64,000 nt of DNA, taken from a virus. A model generated the notes under the pieces. The model saw nothing but the letters and a program-made list of their open reading frames with translations. It ran no database searches and was not told the DNA's origin. Where the stretch lies: IMG/VR virus record IMGVR_UViG_3300023179_000069, positions 1 through 64,000 of that record; one strand, 5' to 3'. Of the stretch, positions 25,301 to 59,715 are shown piece after piece; position 1 is the first letter of the stretch, and every line of letters starts with the position of its first letter. Position numbers and translations under genes: made by a program.

Positions 25301-26813
25301 TGGTTATTTCCCATCAGTAATTCGTGGATGCTATGGAACTGCAGTATTGGATCATCCAATAATTAAAGATAATAATGCATCTACATATTTTACAAAATAT
25401 CCTAATGCAACTTTTAAAAAGGGTGCTTGTGAAATAACCCTATCCGATGGTACAAGTTTTATTGTTCCAAATTTGAGTGCAAAATTAACTAATTCCGGCA
25501 ACACGGGAATTCATAATCATTTTTCTTTTACATTTCAAGCGTTGGATACAAATTCTAAATCTGGCGCGGTAGGAATTGCATATTATTATGATCCAGACAA
25601 TTCAAATAGTGATTATTTATTATTTTTAATTGAAAAAAATATTGGTTCTGACAATAAAGAACAAAGTTCAAAATTTTATATTAAAACAAAAATTAATGGA
25701 AAGGTTAAACTTATTTCATTAAACAATTCATTGCCATTTATTTCATTGCAAAAAAAATTATTTGATAAAAATGAACATAGATTTTCAATATGGCTAAATG
25801 ACAATGAAATAATAATTAGAACAGATGATAGTAGTAGTGTAATAAAAGTAAAAGTTGATAAAAGCTTATATTCAGTATATAATGGATCTTACAAGCCAGC
25901 ATTTTTCTTTTCTACGCAAAACGCTTACGGCACAAGCTTAGATAAAAAATCACAATCTATAAGATTTAAAGAATTTTATGCAGCAGACTGGCCCAAGATT
26001 TTAAAACCTAAAGAATCTGGAATTTTTGATTTAAAAAATAATCCAAAATATCATATTCAAACTGAAACATTTTTATCAAATATTATGAAAGGTGTTAATA
26101 ATGAGCCAGCCTATTATTTGTGGCAAGATTATCCTAAATTGATCGGCATGAAAGCATACAAAAATGAAAAATTTCAATCTGCACCAGCCCTGAATGAAAT
26201 AATTCAATCAGATTTTAATGGATATTCGATGGGCTGGACAAAATCATCTTTAACTCAAGATCCTGTTTTAAGTGTAGGAAGTAAAGCTTTGGCAACATCT
26301 ATAATTGAATCTTATCCCTTTATGTTTAGTCAAATGCTTGTTAATAATACAAGCCCACTAAATAGATTTAGAACGGTTATTTTTTTAAAAGCTAATGGAG
26401 ATAGTGTTCCGGGAGAAGAAGGAAACTCAATTTCAGTAAGTCCATATCAAATAAGAAGCCAAAGATTATTTTTTACATCTGATAAAAAGTATGAAAGAGT
26501 TATTGATTTCAACCATATTAATAATAGTATTGTTATGAATACTAGATGGATTCAAAGTGAAAAAGATGCAAAACAATTAACCAAAAAGATTTCTGCAATT
26601 CTTCCACAATTTAATTCTACCTTACAGCTCGAAATATTTGGTAATCCATTATTACAAGTTGGAGATGTCGTTGGACTATGGTATTCATTAAAAAATTTAG
26701 GATTTGATGCTAATGGCAATTCAGCAGATTCTTTAAAATATTTAGTTGTTGGAGTAAGACAATTTTGGGATGGGGGGCTGAATACACAATTATCATTGAA
26801 ACCCATAAAATGA
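22350..26813 (+). CDS. Large baseplate hub/tail-associated protein (Tal-like)
   Basis: 1,487 residues. Residues about 190-240 look like a fibronectin type III unit (PVQVTWTGVEGAIGYNIYRK). Residues about 590-830 look like the gp27/Tal-type hub fold (LEIDITDYVESYNISKEMS, then TVTIFDAMKPYL and GCYLDETGFMRFID). Residues about 1030-1200 look like a LamG/lectin insertion (HFSFTFQALDTNS, SIWLNDNEIIIRT). Residues about 1390-1487 return to the hub-type beta pattern. It should form the tail tip, and the lectin-like part may touch sugars. Its TGA stop doubles as the TGA of the next promoter. Confidence 0.65.
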   Translation: MIGTSTDKNFFYNQNAIEIKSNVWMEWNYNTIIQPFVVASTYNKPEYIGPDSGWSATNSSISNGVSSKISRNQARAIPTSDYNWNARSNGSNTVTNFQINGNYSDIASYTHSFSTIKPAGYYKIVFYAKGKLPIVSGNLGNVTTTTATYAGSAGTSSAVYAVQAVGRYGQLANILNANQYELKNINAISATNPVQVTWTGVEGAIGYNIYRKAVNTSKKYDTFAYLGTVQNSTTTYSDKATTIDPFANVNVIEQNIINFTPRISLKEELDNLIPFRYDTYSSDINNGGLIEGEKTIRLDGIDWQKIEIYIYSQQDFKKINFDFMINSFFLEPTVQVSPMWIYEISESDYYNRKYFPLESIFSGKRPGEALLNPFINNFDNSDNFNYYRDVSSVDTAYSRRKLSYSFMNVSNIYEQATDQSGMFQIIPDRESKYKYYISDISGDDKGISAYYDQYLSVNKIYIKTNNVFSQYSTALNTSSFTIYFNKSDGTASSYLYTNALNFDSNGISVFYYKDNTWYNTSGSAFSACIQYAASVNSTANGGWLPPTIGNNGQIDSAQILTQMTGLAFKYDTKSLMGETEDNRLHLVEISPRLEIDITDYVESYNISKEMSNEDSGNDFPLGFITSNSGEIVINNFPVYYNNKPFSIFENRNSQTFLYDLLTQNVKFTGYFRSTVDRADFTKIIPSFVMYAENWSAEDINNLTVTIFDAMKPYLQSNESAQYVASSESLDTVINHLFAISGFSDYSRAELNKVCKNKTQSGYFWTEESKTVAQCLQELFISNQIGCYLDETGFMRFIDIDSIIDKKINDSLTTNFDISDIKSSNFPYLPNLIDNSYQETLGTTIGKIIINYRLPNSFTSPAVLPNQSSFSEQLKNISGVFSEESNLALGHTLLSASFSSSDLDLQINNTYLEKPRNNPGTQTGDFFVGCEAVKLDGHKYSFVVSGSPGYNFQKIIRYDSDINNAVQEVVGQFGKLGSNVKYSPTGYFPSVIRGCYGTAVLDHPIIKDNNASTYFTKYPNATFKKGACEITLSDGTSFIVPNLSAKLTNSGNTGIHNHFSFTFQALDTNSKSGAVGIAYYYDPDNSNSDYLLFLIEKNIGSDNKEQSSKFYIKTKINGKVKLISLNNSLPFISLQKKLFDKNEHRFSIWLNDNEIIIRTDDSSSVIKVKVDKSLYSVYNGSYKPAFFFSTQNAYGTSLDKKSQSIRFKEFYAADWPKILKPKESGIFDLKNNPKYHIQTETFLSNIMKGVNNEPAYYLWQDYPKLIGMKAYKNEKFQSAPALNEIIQSDFNGYSMGWTKSSLTQDPVLSVGSKALATSIIESYPFMFSQMLVNNTSPLNRFRTVIFLKANGDSVPGEEGNSISVSPYQIRSQRLFFTSDKKYERVIDFNHINNSIVMNTRWIQSEKDAKQLTKKISAILPQFNSTLQLEIFGNPLLQVGDVVGLWYSLKNLGFDANGNSADSLKYLVVGVRQFWDGGLNTQLSLKPIK

Positions 26814-26819
26814 TATAAT
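26811..26819 (+). promoter_or_regulatory. Extended -10 promoter built on a stop codon
   Basis: TGA-TATAAT, where TGA is also the stop codon of the hub gene. The box ends 10 bases before the ATG at 26830 and no Shine-Dalgarno is present, so the transcript would have almost no leader. Confidence 0.6.
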
Positions 26820-26829
26820 GTGAATAATC

Positions 26830-27213
26830 ATGTCAACATATAATATACCAAATCCAGATAAATATATTAATCCTAATACGGTCAATTTTACTAAATTTAT
26901 TAAAATTTTTGCAGATGACCCTAGGAATAATCCCGCATTTTTATCTGCTAATCCCAATGTTGTTGTTATTGATGTACCATATGATCCTGATAATGAAAAC
27001 AATGTATTCTATGATGATTATGATATAGATTTTGATAATACAAACTCAGATAATTCAAATAGTACAACCATTGAATCTCCTAAAAATTTATCAATTGGTA
27101 ATTTTGAAACAAAAATTTCTAATGATGGTAATGTTTACTATACCGCAACTCTAACATTTGATGATATAGATTATGCTGTGGATTATGAATATGTTTTGGA
27201 GATTTCACAATGA
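26830..27213 (+). CDS. Tail protein ending in the first half of an FN3 domain
   Basis: 127 residues, very Asn/Asp-rich. Residues about 80-127 look like the first strands of a fibronectin type III domain: ESPKNLSIGNFE, then YYTATLTFDD and YAVDYEYVLEIS. The domain stops after strand C. The missing half seems to be at the start of the gene at 28109 (LTGLKPNVTYNVSVRA). The stop overlaps the next start as ATGA. It could be a genuine short tail protein or the front part of an interrupted fibre gene. Confidence 0.6.
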   Translation: MSTYNIPNPDKYINPNTVNFTKFIKIFADDPRNNPAFLSANPNVVVIDVPYDPDNENNVFYDDYDIDFDNTNSDNSNSTTIESPKNLSIGNFETKISNDGNVYYTATLTFDDIDYAVDYEYVLEISQ

Positions 27214-28109
27214 TAAATGGATATTATGTATTAAAATCAGGTGAAGATTTTGTTGCAAGTTCTAAAAATGTCATTACAACAAATGGTTATTTAATGATGA
27301 ATAAATATCTTGCCAATTCTACACAAGATTGGTCGGCGGGAATAGCAATTGGAGTATTAAATAGAAATTCTGCCTCAGCATCAGATACAGCACTAGAATA
27401 TGAAATAGCAAGATATCCAGTAACATTAAAATCATATAGAACAATAAGTGGTTCAAATCAAATTTTACTTAAAGCAACAGTAGATCCAACATTATCAGCA
27501 TCAATTACTGAAATAGGAGTTTTTCCATCAATCGTGATTGGAAAAGATCAGTATATAGTTAGTGATTTTTCTGAAAGTTCTAATTCAATTAATACATGGA
27601 CAGCATCAGGCTCTACAAGTTCATTGCAATTTGCCCCATATTCAAGATATGGCGCAAGCAACACATTCTTTTTTGCTTCTAATAGTTTTCTTGTTAATAA
27701 CAATATTTCTTTTGATATGTCTCAATATGTTTATACAGATTATGCAGATCTTCTTATCTATACCCCTGCAAGTTCATCGGGAACATTTCAAATTTCCTTC
27801 GGAGATGTAAATGGAAATATTTGGAGAAGTGGGTCAGGAACAGCTAGCATTTCCGGTGCAGGATATTATTCAGTAAAAATGCCATTAAGTGGTTCATATA
27901 ACTCTTCTTTTAATTATTCTATTAATTCAGTATCAATTAGTTTTTTGACAACATCAACTGCTAGTTTACATTTTGATGCGCTTAAATTTATATCCGGAGA
28001 TGTAAAACCAGAAACTTTAAAATTAACAAGTAGAAGCATTTTTAGTACACCAATTGCTAAAATTGCTAATCAACCAATGCAATTAGAATATTATATGCAG
28101 GTGACTTAA
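27210..28109 (+). CDS. Tail fibre-associated protein of unknown fold
   Basis: 299 residues. The N-terminal half (about 1-110) has MINGYYVLKSGEDF, an opening I cannot name, then TEIGVFPSI, the kind of phrase found in baseplate/tail-fibre proteins. The C-terminal half (about 115-270) is a Ser-rich beta sandwich (SFDMSQYVYTDYADLLIYTP, then LHFDALKFISG) like carbohydrate-binding modules. ATGA overlap at its start and TAATG at its end. It lies exactly between two halves of an FN3-like domain. Possibly an inserted adhesin module. Confidence 0.6.
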   Translation: MINGYYVLKSGEDFVASSKNVITTNGYLMMNKYLANSTQDWSAGIAIGVLNRNSASASDTALEYEIARYPVTLKSYRTISGSNQILLKATVDPTLSASITEIGVFPSIVIGKDQYIVSDFSESSNSINTWTASGSTSSLQFAPYSRYGASNTFFFASNSFLVNNNISFDMSQYVYTDYADLLIYTPASSSGTFQISFGDVNGNIWRSGSGTASISGAGYYSVKMPLSGSYNSSFNYSINSVSISFLTTSTASLHFDALKFISGDVKPETLKLTSRSIFSTPIAKIANQPMQLEYYMQVT

Positions 28110-40386: not shown

Positions 40387-43300
40387 CAGACTTAGTACAT
40401 TTGCATGTCCATTCACATTATAGTCTCATGGATGGACTATGTTCACCCCACGAGTTAATGCAGGCTGCAAAAAATCTAGGTCATACTGCTCTTGCCATTA
40501 CAGATCATGGAACATTGTCAAGTCACCGCGATATGCAAAAGGCAGGGCGGGAATTAGGGGTGAAACCAATCCTTGGCTTGGAAGCATATATCTCAGAAAC
40601 AGATAGATTCGACAAGCGTGATATTAAGAATCGTGACGATAATACTCAGGTATACAATCACATCATTCTGCTTGCTAAGAATCAGACAGGTCTTAGAAAC
40701 TTGCAAACAATGTCTGAGATTGCTTGGACTGAAGGTTTCTATCGAAAGCCTAGAATTGATATGGAATTGCTTACCGAATATGGTGAGGGTATTATTGTAT
40801 TGTCCGGCTGCTTAAATGGTCTTATTTCAAAAGCTATTGAGCGTGGAGACATGGCAAAGGCTGAGAGCATTGCCAAGTGGTTCAAAGATAGATTTGGTGA
40901 TGATTTTTACATTGAGGTACAACCACACAATCCCATTGAAATTAATAAGCCTTTGCTAGATATCGCGGATAAATTAAATATCAAGCCTGTAACCACTTCT
41001 GACTGCCATTTTGCCACCTCTAGCCAGAGGGCGCTGGAAGAAGTGTTGCTTATTCTATCTACCAAGCCCAATATCAATCGTGAATTCAATTATGAAAATA
41101 CCAAAAAGATGAGTATGTTTGAGCGGTTGAATTCTATCTATCCAGATAGACCAATCAGTTTTCAGGATATTGATGTGTATCTGCAGAATCGTTCAGAAGC
41201 TCAGGAATGGTATAATAATTCAGGAATTAGTAGAACGGACATTTACGACAATACTCTTGAGATTGCTGACAAAATTGAAGAATATGAGTATTATGAAAAC
41301 CTTTCACTCCTTCCAGTTCCTAAGAAAAGTGCAATTATCCAGCTTGAAGAGATGTGCAATGCAAAGCTTTCTGAAATGGGATTGTCTAGTAAAATCTACA
41401 ACACAAGATTGATGGAAGAACTAGAAGTTATCCGTAATAAAGATTTTGCATCATACTTCCTAATTGTTGCCGACATGGTTAATTGGGCAAAAGAAAATGA
41501 CATTTTGGTGGGACCGGGAAGAGGTTCGGCTGCTGGTTCACTAGTCTGCTATTTGTTAGGAATTACTAATGTTGATCCGATTGAATACGATTTGCTGTTC
41601 TTCCGATTTATTAATCCAGATCGGAATGATTTTCCAGATATTGACACAGACTTTATGGACCGTAGGCGTAGTGAAGTAAAAGAATATCTACGCAAAAAAT
41701 TTAAAAATGTAGCATCTATTTCTACATTCCAATACTTTAAAGATAAAGGGGTGATTAGAGATGTTGCTAGAGTTTTTTCAGTCCCACTGGCAGAAGTTGA
41801 CAAATCACTTAAAAACATTGAGACTTTTGAGGATTTTGAAAATAGCCCCAATACGCTGGAATTCAGGCAAAAGTATCCCGAAGTACTTGAGTTTGCCTCT
41901 CAGTTACGCGGAAGAATTCGTGGTGTTGGCATGCATGCTGCTGGTGTGGTTGTGTCTAAAGAGCCTATTAGTAATATCGCGCCAATTGAAACTAGAAATG
42001 ATACAAATGATAGCGTTTCTGGTCGCGTTCCTGTTGTTGCTTACGATATGGATAATTGTGCAGAATTAGGTCTTATTAAACTCGACGCCTTGGGTTTAAA
42101 AACATTATCAGTTATTTATGATGCTTTAAAATCAATTGAAAAAAGAAGTGGAAAATCAATTGATTTAAATAAAATTAAATTTAACGATAAGGTAATTTTT
42201 GAAGATTTAAGTCAAGGATTTACCAAGGGTGTATTTCAAGCTGAAGCAACTCCATATACTAATTTGTTAATTAAAATGGGTGTGGATAACTTTGAAGATT
42301 TAGTTGCATCTAATGCTCTTGTTCGTCCCGGTGCCATGAATACTGTTGGTAAATCATATGTTGATAGAAAGCATGGCAAGGAAGATATTACCTTTGTGCA
42401 TGAAATTATGAAGCCGTTTACATCTAGAACTTATGGTGTCATCATTTATCAAGAGCAAGTTATGCAGGCATGCGTACACTTGGGCGGTATGTCATGGTCT
42501 GAGGCCGACAAGGTTCGTAAAATTATTGGTAAGAAAAAAGATGCAAAAGAATTTGATGTATTTAGAGATAAGTTCATTGAAGGCGCTTCCCAACATATTA
42601 CAAAAAAACAAGCAGAAACACTTTGGCATGATTTTGAAGCGCATGCTGGATATTCTTTTAATCGTAGTCATGCTGTTGCTTATTCCATGTTGTCATATTA
42701 TTGTGCTTGGATTAAACATTATTATCCAATTGATTTTGTATTTGCATTGCTTAAGAATGAAAATGATAAAGATACAAGAACAGAATATTTATTGGAAGCC
42801 AAGCGTTTAGGAATTAAAGTACTTTTGCCACATGTTAATGAATCCGATTTGGATTTTACTGTTAAAGGTGATTCAATTAGATTTGGTTTAAATAATATTA
42901 AATATATTTCAGATAATATTGCAAGCAAATTAATATCTCAAGGTCCATATAAAAATTATTCACATTTAATTGAAGTATCAAAAACAAAAGGAAGTGGTAT
43001 TAATTCTAGAGCAATTCAAGCTTTAAATGCAATCGGTGCTGCTGCTTTTGATGACAATCCTAGAACGGGTAATGAATCTGAAAATTTGTATGAATATCTT
43101 AATGTTCCTAAATTTGATACTCGCGGCATCACTCCATATTTAAGAGCACAAATAAATCCCATTAGTGACTTCTTGGAAACAGGATGTTTTATTATTATGG
43201 CTATGGTTAAATCAATTAAAAAAGGAAAAGGCTGGTCAAGAGTAGAACTTGTGGATGACACGGGAACGATTGGTATTTTTCATGATGAAAACACTAAAAT

Positions 43301-49275: not shown

Positions 49276-50286
49276 ATGAAAAGAGTATTGCTGACAGGTG
49301 CCAGTGGATTTGTGGGAAGCCATGTATTGCGTCACCTTATTGTAAACACAGATTGGTTTATTGTTTGTCCCACCACATTTACTCATAAGGGATTACAAGA
49401 TAGAATTCGTGTAGCCCTTGATGATATTCCAAATGCTTACAAGCGTGTCAAAGTAATTCGTTGCGATTTCACATCACCAATTTCACCTATTACTGCACAT
49501 GAGTTTGGCAAAATTGATTATGTAATTAATGTTGCAAGTGAGTCACATGTTGATCGAAGCATTGAATATCCAGCTTCTTTTATTATTAATAATGTTTCTC
49601 TTATTTGTCATTTATTGGATTGGGCTAAAATTGCTCAACCAGAAAAGTTTTTGCAGGTATCAACTGATGAAGTTTATGGTCCTGCCCCAGCTGGGTATGC
49701 ACATCAAGAATGGGTAGATCAGCATTTCCCAAGCAATCCATATTCTGCTAGTAAAGCAGCACAAGAAGATATTTGTTTTTCCTATTGGCGTACATATGGA
49801 ATTCCTATGGCTATTACTAATACTATGAATATTATTGGTGAGACACAAGATCCAGAAAAATTTATGCCAATGGTTATTAAGCGTGTTTTGAATGGTGAAA
49901 AGATGAGCATTCACTCATCCCCCACAGGACAGATTGGAAGCCGTTTTTATTTACATGCCCGTAACCAAGCAGACGGATTATTGCATGTTTTAAATCAACC
50001 ATTTAGACCTTATGGTGAGGTTGATACTCCAGAGCGTTTTCATATTGTCGGAGAGCGTGAAGTTGATAATCTTGAAATGGCACAATTAATTGCTTCAGCA
50101 GTTGGTAAGCCATTGAATTATGAACTTGTTGATTTTCATTCTTCTCGTCCCGGTCATGATTTGCGTTACGCTCTTGATGGAAAAAAGATGGCTGATTCTG
50201 GCTGGAGTCTTCCAATACCTTTAGAAGAATCTATTAATAGAACAGTTAAGTGGACACTTGACCATCAAGAGTGGCTAAACATCTAA
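49276..50286 (+). CDS. NAD-dependent sugar epimerase/dehydratase (RmlB-like)
   Basis: 336 residues from ATG 49276, 6 bases after GGAG. The NAD-binding GASGFVGSH lies at the N-terminus. STDEVYGPAP is the typical dTDP-glucose 4,6-dehydratase phrase, and YSASKAAQE holds the catalytic Tyr-x3-Lys. The family turns NDP-glucose into a 4-keto-6-deoxy sugar. The exact sugar is uncertain: UDP-sugar decarboxylases and epimerases share the fold. It follows two glycosyltransferases and overlaps no gene. Confidence 0.8.
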   Translation: MKRVLLTGASGFVGSHVLRHLIVNTDWFIVCPTTFTHKGLQDRIRVALDDIPNAYKRVKVIRCDFTSPISPITAHEFGKIDYVINVASESHVDRSIEYPASFIINNVSLICHLLDWAKIAQPEKFLQVSTDEVYGPAPAGYAHQEWVDQHFPSNPYSASKAAQEDICFSYWRTYGIPMAITNTMNIIGETQDPEKFMPMVIKRVLNGEKMSIHSSPTGQIGSRFYLHARNQADGLLHVLNQPFRPYGEVDTPERFHIVGEREVDNLEMAQLIASAVGKPLNYELVDFHSSRPGHDLRYALDGKKMADSGWSLPIPLEESINRTVKWTLDHQEWLNI

Positions 50287-50294
50287 GGAGAAAA

Positions 50295-51341
50295 ATGCAG
50301 CTTTATAAAATTCAGACACAAATTTGTTTTGATGATATCTTACTTGTTCCACAAGCATCAGAAGTGATATCTAGAAAAGATATCCATCTCGGCACACAAA
50401 TTGGTTATGGCAAATATGAAATTGATTTACCTTTTCCAATAATTGCCTCGCCAATGGATACTGTTTGTGAAGCAGAGATGGCAATAGAAATTGGTAAATT
50501 CGGCGGACTTGGAATTATTCATAGATATATGGATATTGAAAAACAAAAATCAGAAGTGTATAAAGTTGCCAGTCAAGGTTTACTTGTCGGAGCAGCGGTA
50601 TCCATAAAGGACGCAGAAGGAAAACAAGAAAACATAGAGAAACTAATTAATTCAGGAGCATCTATGATTCTTCTTGATGTTGCAAATGGTCATAGTGTGT
50701 ATGCCATAGATGCTGTAAGAAAAATAAAACAAAAATTCAAGGTACATGTCATGGCTGGGAATGTTTCAACATGGGATGGATTTTTGGGTTTATCTATGGC
50801 AGGCGCAGACTCTATCCGTGTTGGAATCGGTGGTGGTTCATGTTGTACTACAAGAATAGTAACTGGTCATGGAATGCCAACACTTTCATCTATTTTAGAT
50901 GTAAGGGAAATGCTTGAGCGTATGGATTTGCCAACATCAATTATTGCTGATGGTGGAATTAGAAACACTGGCGACATGATAAAATCTTTTGCAGCAGGAT
51001 CAGATGCAGTAATGCTAGGCTCAATGCTTGCAGGTCATGAAGAATCTCCGGGACAAAAGGAATATACTGAAAGTGGAACATTCAAAGTATTTCGTGGTAT
51101 GGCTAGTGAAGATGCTCAAATTGATTGGCGTGGAGAAGTTTCTGTTGCAGAGGGAATTTCAACAAAAATTAATTATAAGGGTAGCGTTATTGATACATTT
51201 AAAGAAATCAAGGGCGGTCTATCCAGTGGTTGTTCCTATTCTGGCGTAACTAGTCTTCACGATTTGATGTATAATTCACAATATATTTTAATTTCACAAA
51301 ATACAATAAAGGAGAGTTTGCCTCATGGGAAAAATGCCTAA
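50295..51341 (+). CDS. IMP dehydrogenase/GMP reductase-like, lacking CBS domains
   Basis: 348 residues from ATG 50295 (AAGGAG 4 bases upstream); an earlier ATG at 50271 lies inside the previous gene. The TIM barrel carries FDDILLVP, MDTVCEAEMA, VGIGGGSCCTTR (catalytic Cys184), ADGGIRNTGD and GGLSSGCSYSG. No CBS pair is inserted after the first strands, so the length is close to GMP reductase. The C-terminal ESLPHG looks more like IMPDH. It either makes XMP from IMP or IMP from GMP. It could shift the host guanine pool for phage DNA. Confidence 0.85.
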   Translation: MQLYKIQTQICFDDILLVPQASEVISRKDIHLGTQIGYGKYEIDLPFPIIASPMDTVCEAEMAIEIGKFGGLGIIHRYMDIEKQKSEVYKVASQGLLVGAAVSIKDAEGKQENIEKLINSGASMILLDVANGHSVYAIDAVRKIKQKFKVHVMAGNVSTWDGFLGLSMAGADSIRVGIGGGSCCTTRIVTGHGMPTLSSILDVREMLERMDLPTSIIADGGIRNTGDMIKSFAAGSDAVMLGSMLAGHEESPGQKEYTESGTFKVFRGMASEDAQIDWRGEVSVAEGISTKINYKGSVIDTFKEIKGGLSSGCSYSGVTSLHDLMYNSQYILISQNTIKESLPHGKNA

Positions 51342-54507: not shown

Positions 54508-54582
54508 CGGGCGTGGGTGAGCTGGTTGACCACCGCAGGCTTATATCCTGCTATTTGATGGGTTCGATTCCCATACGCCCGA
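54508..54582 (+). tRNA. tRNA-Ile(UAU)
   Basis: Perfect 7-bp acceptor stem (CGGGCGT/ACGCCCG). Anticodon stem GCAGG/CCTGC with loop CTTATAT gives anticodon UAU, which reads AUA. The T arm is canonical (ATGGG, TTCGATT, CCCAT). The variable loop seems to have 6 bases, slightly long. No CCA encoded. Bacteria usually read AUA with a modified CAU anticodon, so UAU is notable; AUA is very common in this AT-rich genome. Confidence 0.8.
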
Positions 54583-54584
54583 CT

Positions 54585-54699
54585 GAGTGGTAGGTAGCGC
54601 ATCTTAGGATGGATTAGTTACCCAAGCCGGATGAGTCCAAGTGTGAGATAGTTCTCCGACCCATTTGATGCAGGACTCGGCAAGTTCTACCTACCACTC
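54585..54699 (+). ncRNA. Structured RNA of unknown class
   Basis: A 12-bp perfect closing stem (54585-54596/54688-54699) encloses about 91 bases. Inside, GAGTCC (54633-54638) pairs with GGACTC (54673-54678), and GCATC (54599-54603) with GATGC (54667-54671). The last two cross and would form a pseudoknot if both exist. GAGA/TCTC makes a small hairpin at 54645-54656. No open reading frame fills it. It directly follows tRNA-Ile and ends before the next promoter. I cannot assign it to any RNA family. Confidence 0.6.
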
Positions 54700-59196: not shown

Positions 59197-59715
59197 ATGG
59201 TTACATATTATAATGAACATAAAGGTACAGCAGATTACAAGAACCCCAAGGATTGGGGTTCATCAGCATTGAATCCATATGTTAGCTCTAGAGATGATGT
59301 TTTTCCTTCTCTAGCATCAGTAACTTTGCCTAAAATGTTAAATAACTGGTTGGGATTCGATTCTCTTTTCAATCGTTTATTGACTCTTGATGAAGGTACT
59401 ACTTCATATCCACCATTTAATGTTATTAAGATTTCAGACAATGAATTTGAGGTTCAGATTGCTGCGGCGGGATTCGATAAAAATAACTTGACGGTAACAG
59501 AAGAAAATGGTACTCTTATTATATCTGGTGAGAATGATTCTGATAAAGCAGAATATATCTACAAGGGAATTGGCTTGCGTAAGTTCACAAAGCGTTTTGC
59601 ATTGTCAGAGCATATGAGTGTCAAGGAGACATGGTACGATAATGGAATTCTTGTCGTATCAGTTATTCGTGATGTTCCAGAGGCTTTGAAGCCTAAGACA
59701 TTTAAGATTAAGTAA
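59197..59715 (+). CDS. Hsp20-family small heat shock protein
   Basis: 172 residues. The alpha-crystallin core spans about 70-165 (VIKISDNEFEVQIAAAGF, LIISGEND, KRFALSEHMSVKETW, NGILVVSVIRDVP) and ends in the KTFKIK tail typical of these proteins. The N-terminal 65 residues are Pro/Ser/Leu-rich. sHsps hold unfolding proteins; phage versions are known, for example in some cyanophages, and may aid head or tail assembly. The gene has the best promoter of the window and C-richer codons. Confidence 0.88.
   Translation: MVTYYNEHKGTADYKNPKDWGSSALNPYVSSRDDVFPSLASVTLPKMLNNWLGFDSLFNRLLTLDEGTTSYPPFNVIKISDNEFEVQIAAAGFDKNNLTVTEENGTLIISGENDSDKAEYIYKGIGLRKFTKRFALSEHMSVKETWYDNGILVVSVIRDVPEALKPKTFKIK

Follow-up and report, generated by a model that had tools for sequence, protein, structure and literature searches.

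A phage RNA family encoded beside tRNA genes with predicted antisense complementarity to host 23S rRNA

What is the role of a small structured RNA encoded directly behind a phage tRNA gene? The question is raised by an element of 115 nt at 54585–54699 of the 64,000 nucleotides analysed here (the window, positions 1–64,000 of the 82,471-base IMG/VR virus record IMGVR_UViG_3300023179_000069), which starts 1 nt past a tRNA-Ile gene at 54508–54583. The element is a member of a previously undescribed structured RNA family outside Rfam 15, and its complementarity to 23S rRNA exceeds chance. Judged from sequence comparisons, it is likely to be a phage-encoded structured antisense RNA against host 23S rRNA. 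The predicted antisense relation of its conserved core to the host 23S rRNA was missed in an initial annotation of the locus.

Results

Two segments of the element are predicted to pair with neighbouring sites in 23S rRNA. Segment A is antisense to helix 69 and its 3′ flank (E. coli 1909–1930) and segment B to ~1961–1978. Duplexes of the window element with Streptomyces 23S rRNA are predicted to reach −33.8 kcal/mol for A and −20.8 kcal/mol for B. Within A, 54598–54612 and 54615–54623 are predicted to pair with helix 69 and its 3′ flank, leaving 2 nt unpaired opposite 23S 1917–1919. The features of the locus are as follows.

54508–54583, + strand: tRNA-Ile (anticodon TAT) directly upstream of the element (ARAGORN; Rfam tRNA, 36.8 bits)
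54585–54699, + strand: whole structured RNA, a class 1 member (match of covariance model R1 at 54586–54698, E = 9e-6)
54585–54597, + strand: closing stem P1, 5′ strand, GAGTGGTAGGTAG (compensatory changes)
54687–54699, + strand: closing stem P1, 3′ strand, CTACCTACCACTC (compensatory changes)
54598–54623, + strand: antisense segment A, holding the conserved motif CTTAGGATGGATTAGTTAC at 54603–54621 (duplex energy; blind tiling)
54657–54674, + strand: antisense segment B, CGACCCATTTGATGCAGG, predicted to pair with 23S ~1961–1978 (duplex energy; blind tiling)
54633–54638, + strand: GAGTCC, pairing with GGACTC at 54673–54678 in the predicted free fold (minimum free energy; invariant or wobble only)
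54645–54656, + strand: candidate small hairpin, GAGA-TAGT-TCTC, within the variable middle (seen in sequence only)

We used blind tiling, with the Streptomyces 23S rRNA cut into 203 windows, to locate the best complements of both segments in 27 family representatives. Window 1900 ranked top for segment A (mean z −7.5), and the top three windows for segment B, which had played no part in finding the family, were 1945, 1960 and 1930 (mean z −2.37, with a spread over windows of 0.40). Segment B paired better than its own shuffles (p ≤ 0.05) in 20 of the 27 representatives; the tiling supersedes an earlier, weaker test of B by the best single 23S site, in which 10 of 27 fell at the site against 3% of shuffles. 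On E. coli 23S rRNA, the best site was 1910 for all four A variants tried and started at ~1957–1964 for all nine B variants tried (site numbers shifted by 6 to agree with customary E. coli numbering). The family core has no conserved pairing, as would be expected of an exposed antisense. Pairing is interrupted opposite 1917–1920 in all members, and a perfect actinobacterial 20-mer antisense occurs in no IMG/VR contig.

The sequence of segment A also carries a signal of host type. The helix 69 region reads GGUAACUAUAACCAUCCUAAGG in actinobacterial 23S rRNA and CGUAACUAUAACGGUCCUAAGG in that of E. coli and Azospirillum, and the AUGG of the family matches the actinobacterial form. Actinobacterial 23S rRNA outscored E. 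coli 23S rRNA for 26 of the 27 representatives (mean 40.8 vs 36.7). The terminase of the window is 65% identical to Streptomyces phage terminases, a pointer to an actinobacterial host that is independent of the fit of segment A. The viruses carrying the family thus probably infect actinobacteria. The case for predicted antisense draws its weight from the match of two distinct segments, whichever comes first, to adjoining 23S sites, together with this fit to host type.

The family extends over more than 100 IMG/VR phage contigs. Of 80 related loci gathered via the neighbouring terminase, four (L002–L005) hold close copies of the element with 85–89% identity, and the other terminase-linked relatives have little in common with it beyond CTTAGGATGGTGTAGTTAC. 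A pattern search of IMG/VR yielded at least 120 stretches; the same pattern run against one genome per species (84,980 species) gave eight matches, none of which resembles the family, and a host-encoded family was rejected. An exact pattern taken from the middle part of the window element had zero matches. No carrier of this RNA was found among the sequenced phages searched, and 41.7 kb of Streptomyces phage Kenrey (L207), which has a related terminase, contained neither this RNA nor a helix 69 antisense of this type. The tRNA region of Kenrey contains genes for a Ro-like RNA-binding protein (26345–27961) and an RNA ligase (40919–41737).

Compensating base changes support the closing stem, P1. 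All 10 tested pairs covary across the family, the signal is lost when partner columns are shifted by 1–3, and three pairs have changed on both sides among the close relatives of the window element. The perfect closing stem proposed by the initial annotation is thus real, with a length of 13 rather than 12 bp, and the proposal withstands the refutation set for it there, a lack of covariation in relatives. A covariance model built without the window element and its close relatives recovered that element at 54586–54698 (E = 9e-6); in 71 terminase-linked loci the same model found elements in 30 at E ≤ 1, 27 of these below 1e-4. The element itself folds better than its shuffles (z = −2.75, with an equally good fold in 2 of 200).

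The two crossing pairings from which a pseudoknot had been suggested, GCATC (54599–54603) with GATGC (54667–54671) and GAGTCC with GGACTC, are both present in the sequence. Covariation does not support them as a defining feature: in close relatives they are invariant except for one G-U wobble, which speaks neither for nor against them. Segment B and the base of A share nucleotides with these pairings, which may therefore reflect a closed state of the free RNA or a side effect of the conservation of the antisense.

Most viral matches share a class 1 plan, in which P1 is followed by motif A, a variable part, motif B (GUGCA-like) and P1′. In about a dozen contigs (class 2) motif B precedes motif A with a short linker between them, the other ends are closed by a covarying 13-bp stem, and the element often lies just before a tRNA. 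Both antisense segments are retained in this permuted class. A third arrangement, in L085, L088 and L192, has B directly before A (GTGCCTTAGGATGATGTAGTTAC) with no tRNA nearby. Minimal members (L100, L130, L142, L030 and L135) measure 77–80 nt and keep P1 and motif A, with scant motif B.

A same-strand tRNA lies within 20 nt of 63 of 74 elements, and no tRNA on the opposite strand occurs within 3 kb of any of the 74. The HNH gene that the initial annotation gave as context is incidental, since the usual place of a member is between tRNA genes, and an HNH-linked element was rejected, this neighbour not being retained in most relatives. The view of the element as a small structured RNA of a new kind, encoded alongside tRNAs, lacking a coding frame and distinct from tmRNA and group I introns, is borne out. 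No open reading frame of at least 50 aa covers it, and Rfam 15 (ribozymes, tmRNA, group I introns, HEARO and riboswitches included) gave no match to it even at E ≤ 10. Elements of nine relative-bearing loci likewise had no Rfam 15 match, and the H/ACA and C/D guide RNA families had none over the element in the Rfam scans.

Other candidate identities were discarded. HEARO had no Rfam match, and a twister-like core suspected by eye was unsupported. A link to Ro/Y RNAs found no TROVE (PF05731) gene in the 82-kb record, which is possibly incomplete. No phage rRNA gene was found from which the sequence could have originated. As for a target within the phage, motif A finds no better complement in the window, its own element excluded, than one with 2 mismatches in 14.

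Complementarity to helix 69 recurs in other phages. A search for gapped E. coli-type antisense led to 16 contigs without detected tRNAs, and the antisense in two groups, X and Y, is of the CGGUCC type of helix 69. Group Y (L220, L221, L224, L225, L226, L228, L230, L233 and L234; four distinct sequences) has a separate structured RNA of three hairpins. In loop 1, CCTTAGGACCGTT-TAGTTACGG, 22 of 23 nt are antisense to CGGUCC-type helix 69; loop 2, GCGGCTGCTG (CGGCTGCTGGC in one), is an exact antisense of the 16S 530 loop; and loop 3 has a conserved GGAGTCGTGCCC. Group X (L219, L227, L229 and L231) has a putative RNA with a stem of 17–19 bp, with differing pairs, around CTTAGGACCGTAGTTACGG, and its helix 69 antisense lacks the nucleotides opposite 1917–1919. 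The interruption opposite 1917–1920 is found in both groups as well. A single CCTTAGGACCGTATAGTTAC with no clear closing stem occurs in L232 (4781–4799).

Discussion

If the element is an antisense RNA against 23S rRNA, these viruses may use an RNA, in place of a protein, to grip or block the ribosome of the host. The RNA would be transcribed together with the phage tRNA cluster and probably released by tRNA-processing enzymes, with tRNA-Ile 3′-end processing setting its 5′ end. The closing stem would present segments A and B, which together would bracket helices 70–71. In class 1 this stem would sit at the junction facing helix 71; class 2 would have the short linker there and its closing stem would join the other ends, a swap that would explain why the two classes are circular permutations. 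Because helix 69 belongs to intersubunit bridge B2a when 70S ribosomes are at work, nascent 23S rRNA or free 50S subunits would be the likely targets. That the RNA hinders 50S maturation or subunit joining, while already working ribosomes serve the phage, is a tentative proposal whose chances we place a little short of even. Sensitivity of this region to interference has been reported: the helix 69 mutations A1912G, Psi1917C and A1919G strongly inhibit translation, and A1916G impairs 50S or 70S formation (PMC1190176).

Several points weigh against this reading. Full two-turn pairing with P1 closed requires threading or opening of P1, and nested cofolding yields a gain of just −3.5 kcal/mol for the window element. 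Helix 69 and 1961–1978 are folded in the mature 50S, and predicted free folds leave motif A hardly more open than the remaining core (0.49 vs 0.41). Halting all translation would harm the phage itself, so any effect must be selective. Segment B is weak in L006, L195 and L130, the 27 representatives are homologous, so that counts over them are not independent trials, and the host assignment draws solely on the terminase and sequence type.

The pairing itself could serve another end. As a guide or chaperone, the RNA would pair with 23S rRNA and hold the helix 69–71 region in a given state, or expose or mask 1917–1920 for an enzyme, and so tune ribosomes instead of blocking them. These positions include Psi1917 and C1920, the latter a methylation site of TlyA. 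The break in pairing there, shared by all members and groups X and Y, and the lack of the perfect 20-mer from IMG/VR contigs are in keeping with such a role; nevertheless, the break could equally avoid RNase III cutting or ease threading, and no modification enzyme was found linked among the few neighbours annotated. We therefore regard a guide or chaperone as unlikely, though worth keeping in view. Archaeal and eukaryotic C/D and H/ACA guide RNAs resemble the phage RNA in being small and in their antisense match to conserved rRNA positions, among them the helix 69 region, but their layout is not seen in the phage-encoded RNA, and we know of no bacterial partner proteins for guides of these types.

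Two further explanations were considered. The RNA might serve as a self-cleaving ribozyme, ligand sensor or protein decoy, with a core whose likeness to antisense 23S arose through descent or by chance. Circular permutation is typical of small ribozymes, and HDV-like theta ribozymes are likewise structured RNAs beside phage tRNA genes (PMC10879173), but the element has no Rfam ribozyme match and its layout is P1 around an open core. Such a role also fails to account for two segments that match neighbouring 23S sites in both linear orders, with helices 70–71 omitted between them, and for a segment A that fits one host type when other phage groups carry the other; we consider it improbable. Less probable still, and hardly to be expected, is a splint that keeps 23S rRNA together for repair after a host defence nuclease has cut in helices 70–71. 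Segments A and B bracket exactly 1931–1960, where cutting by some actinobacterial MazF toxins has been reported (not found again in the open-access papers searched), and an RNA ligase gene is present in a related Streptomyces phage. Against a splint, the pairing stops short of the cut site, and the record from which the window comes has no RNA ligase of PF09414, the only ligase family searched.

Among known systems, antisense RNAs come closest to the way in which the phage RNA would act, here on the ribosome. Like trans-acting antisense small RNAs of bacteria and phages, it has an imperfect antisense stretch that is presented by a structured RNA; those target mRNA, whereas the phage RNA would target rRNA through two segments bracketing one rRNA domain, with a core that follows host rRNA type. 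The same helix is the antisense target of a peptide nucleic acid that, as cited in PMC7038079 (Kulik et al. 2017), inhibits E. coli growth. That compound, as described there, is a man-made oligomer, and the phage RNA is natural and folded, with two putative antisense segments and a fixed break opposite 1917–1920.

Phage proteins are known to reach host ribosomes. PhiKZ014, likewise a phage factor aimed at the host large subunit, binds the host 50S (PMC10914614); it is a protein bound to 5S rRNA, whereas the RNA described here is predicted to pair with 23S rRNA. We found no natural viral RNA targeting rRNA by base pairing described in the open-access literature searched. We regard as evenly balanced the broader proposition that structured RNAs which base-pair with the functional centre of the host ribosome and so dock there (on 23S helix 69 and ~1961–1978, and in group Y also on the 16S 530 loop), always with 1917–1920 unpaired, have arisen repeatedly in several groups of phages. 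This would be an undescribed way of taking over ribosome assembly or subunit joining by means of RNA. If viral RNAs do target rRNA in this manner, the ribosome would offer a natural antisense target in its most conserved part, rRNA-directed antisense antibacterials would have a natural template, and how a phage sustains its own translation while interfering with 50S formation would become testable. Because segment A follows the helix 69 type of the host, it would also carry host information for uncultured phages.

Elsewhere in the window, the phage gene at 50271–51341 encodes an IMP dehydrogenase / GMP reductase domain, and 59197–59715 is a phage gene for an Hsp20-like small heat shock protein.
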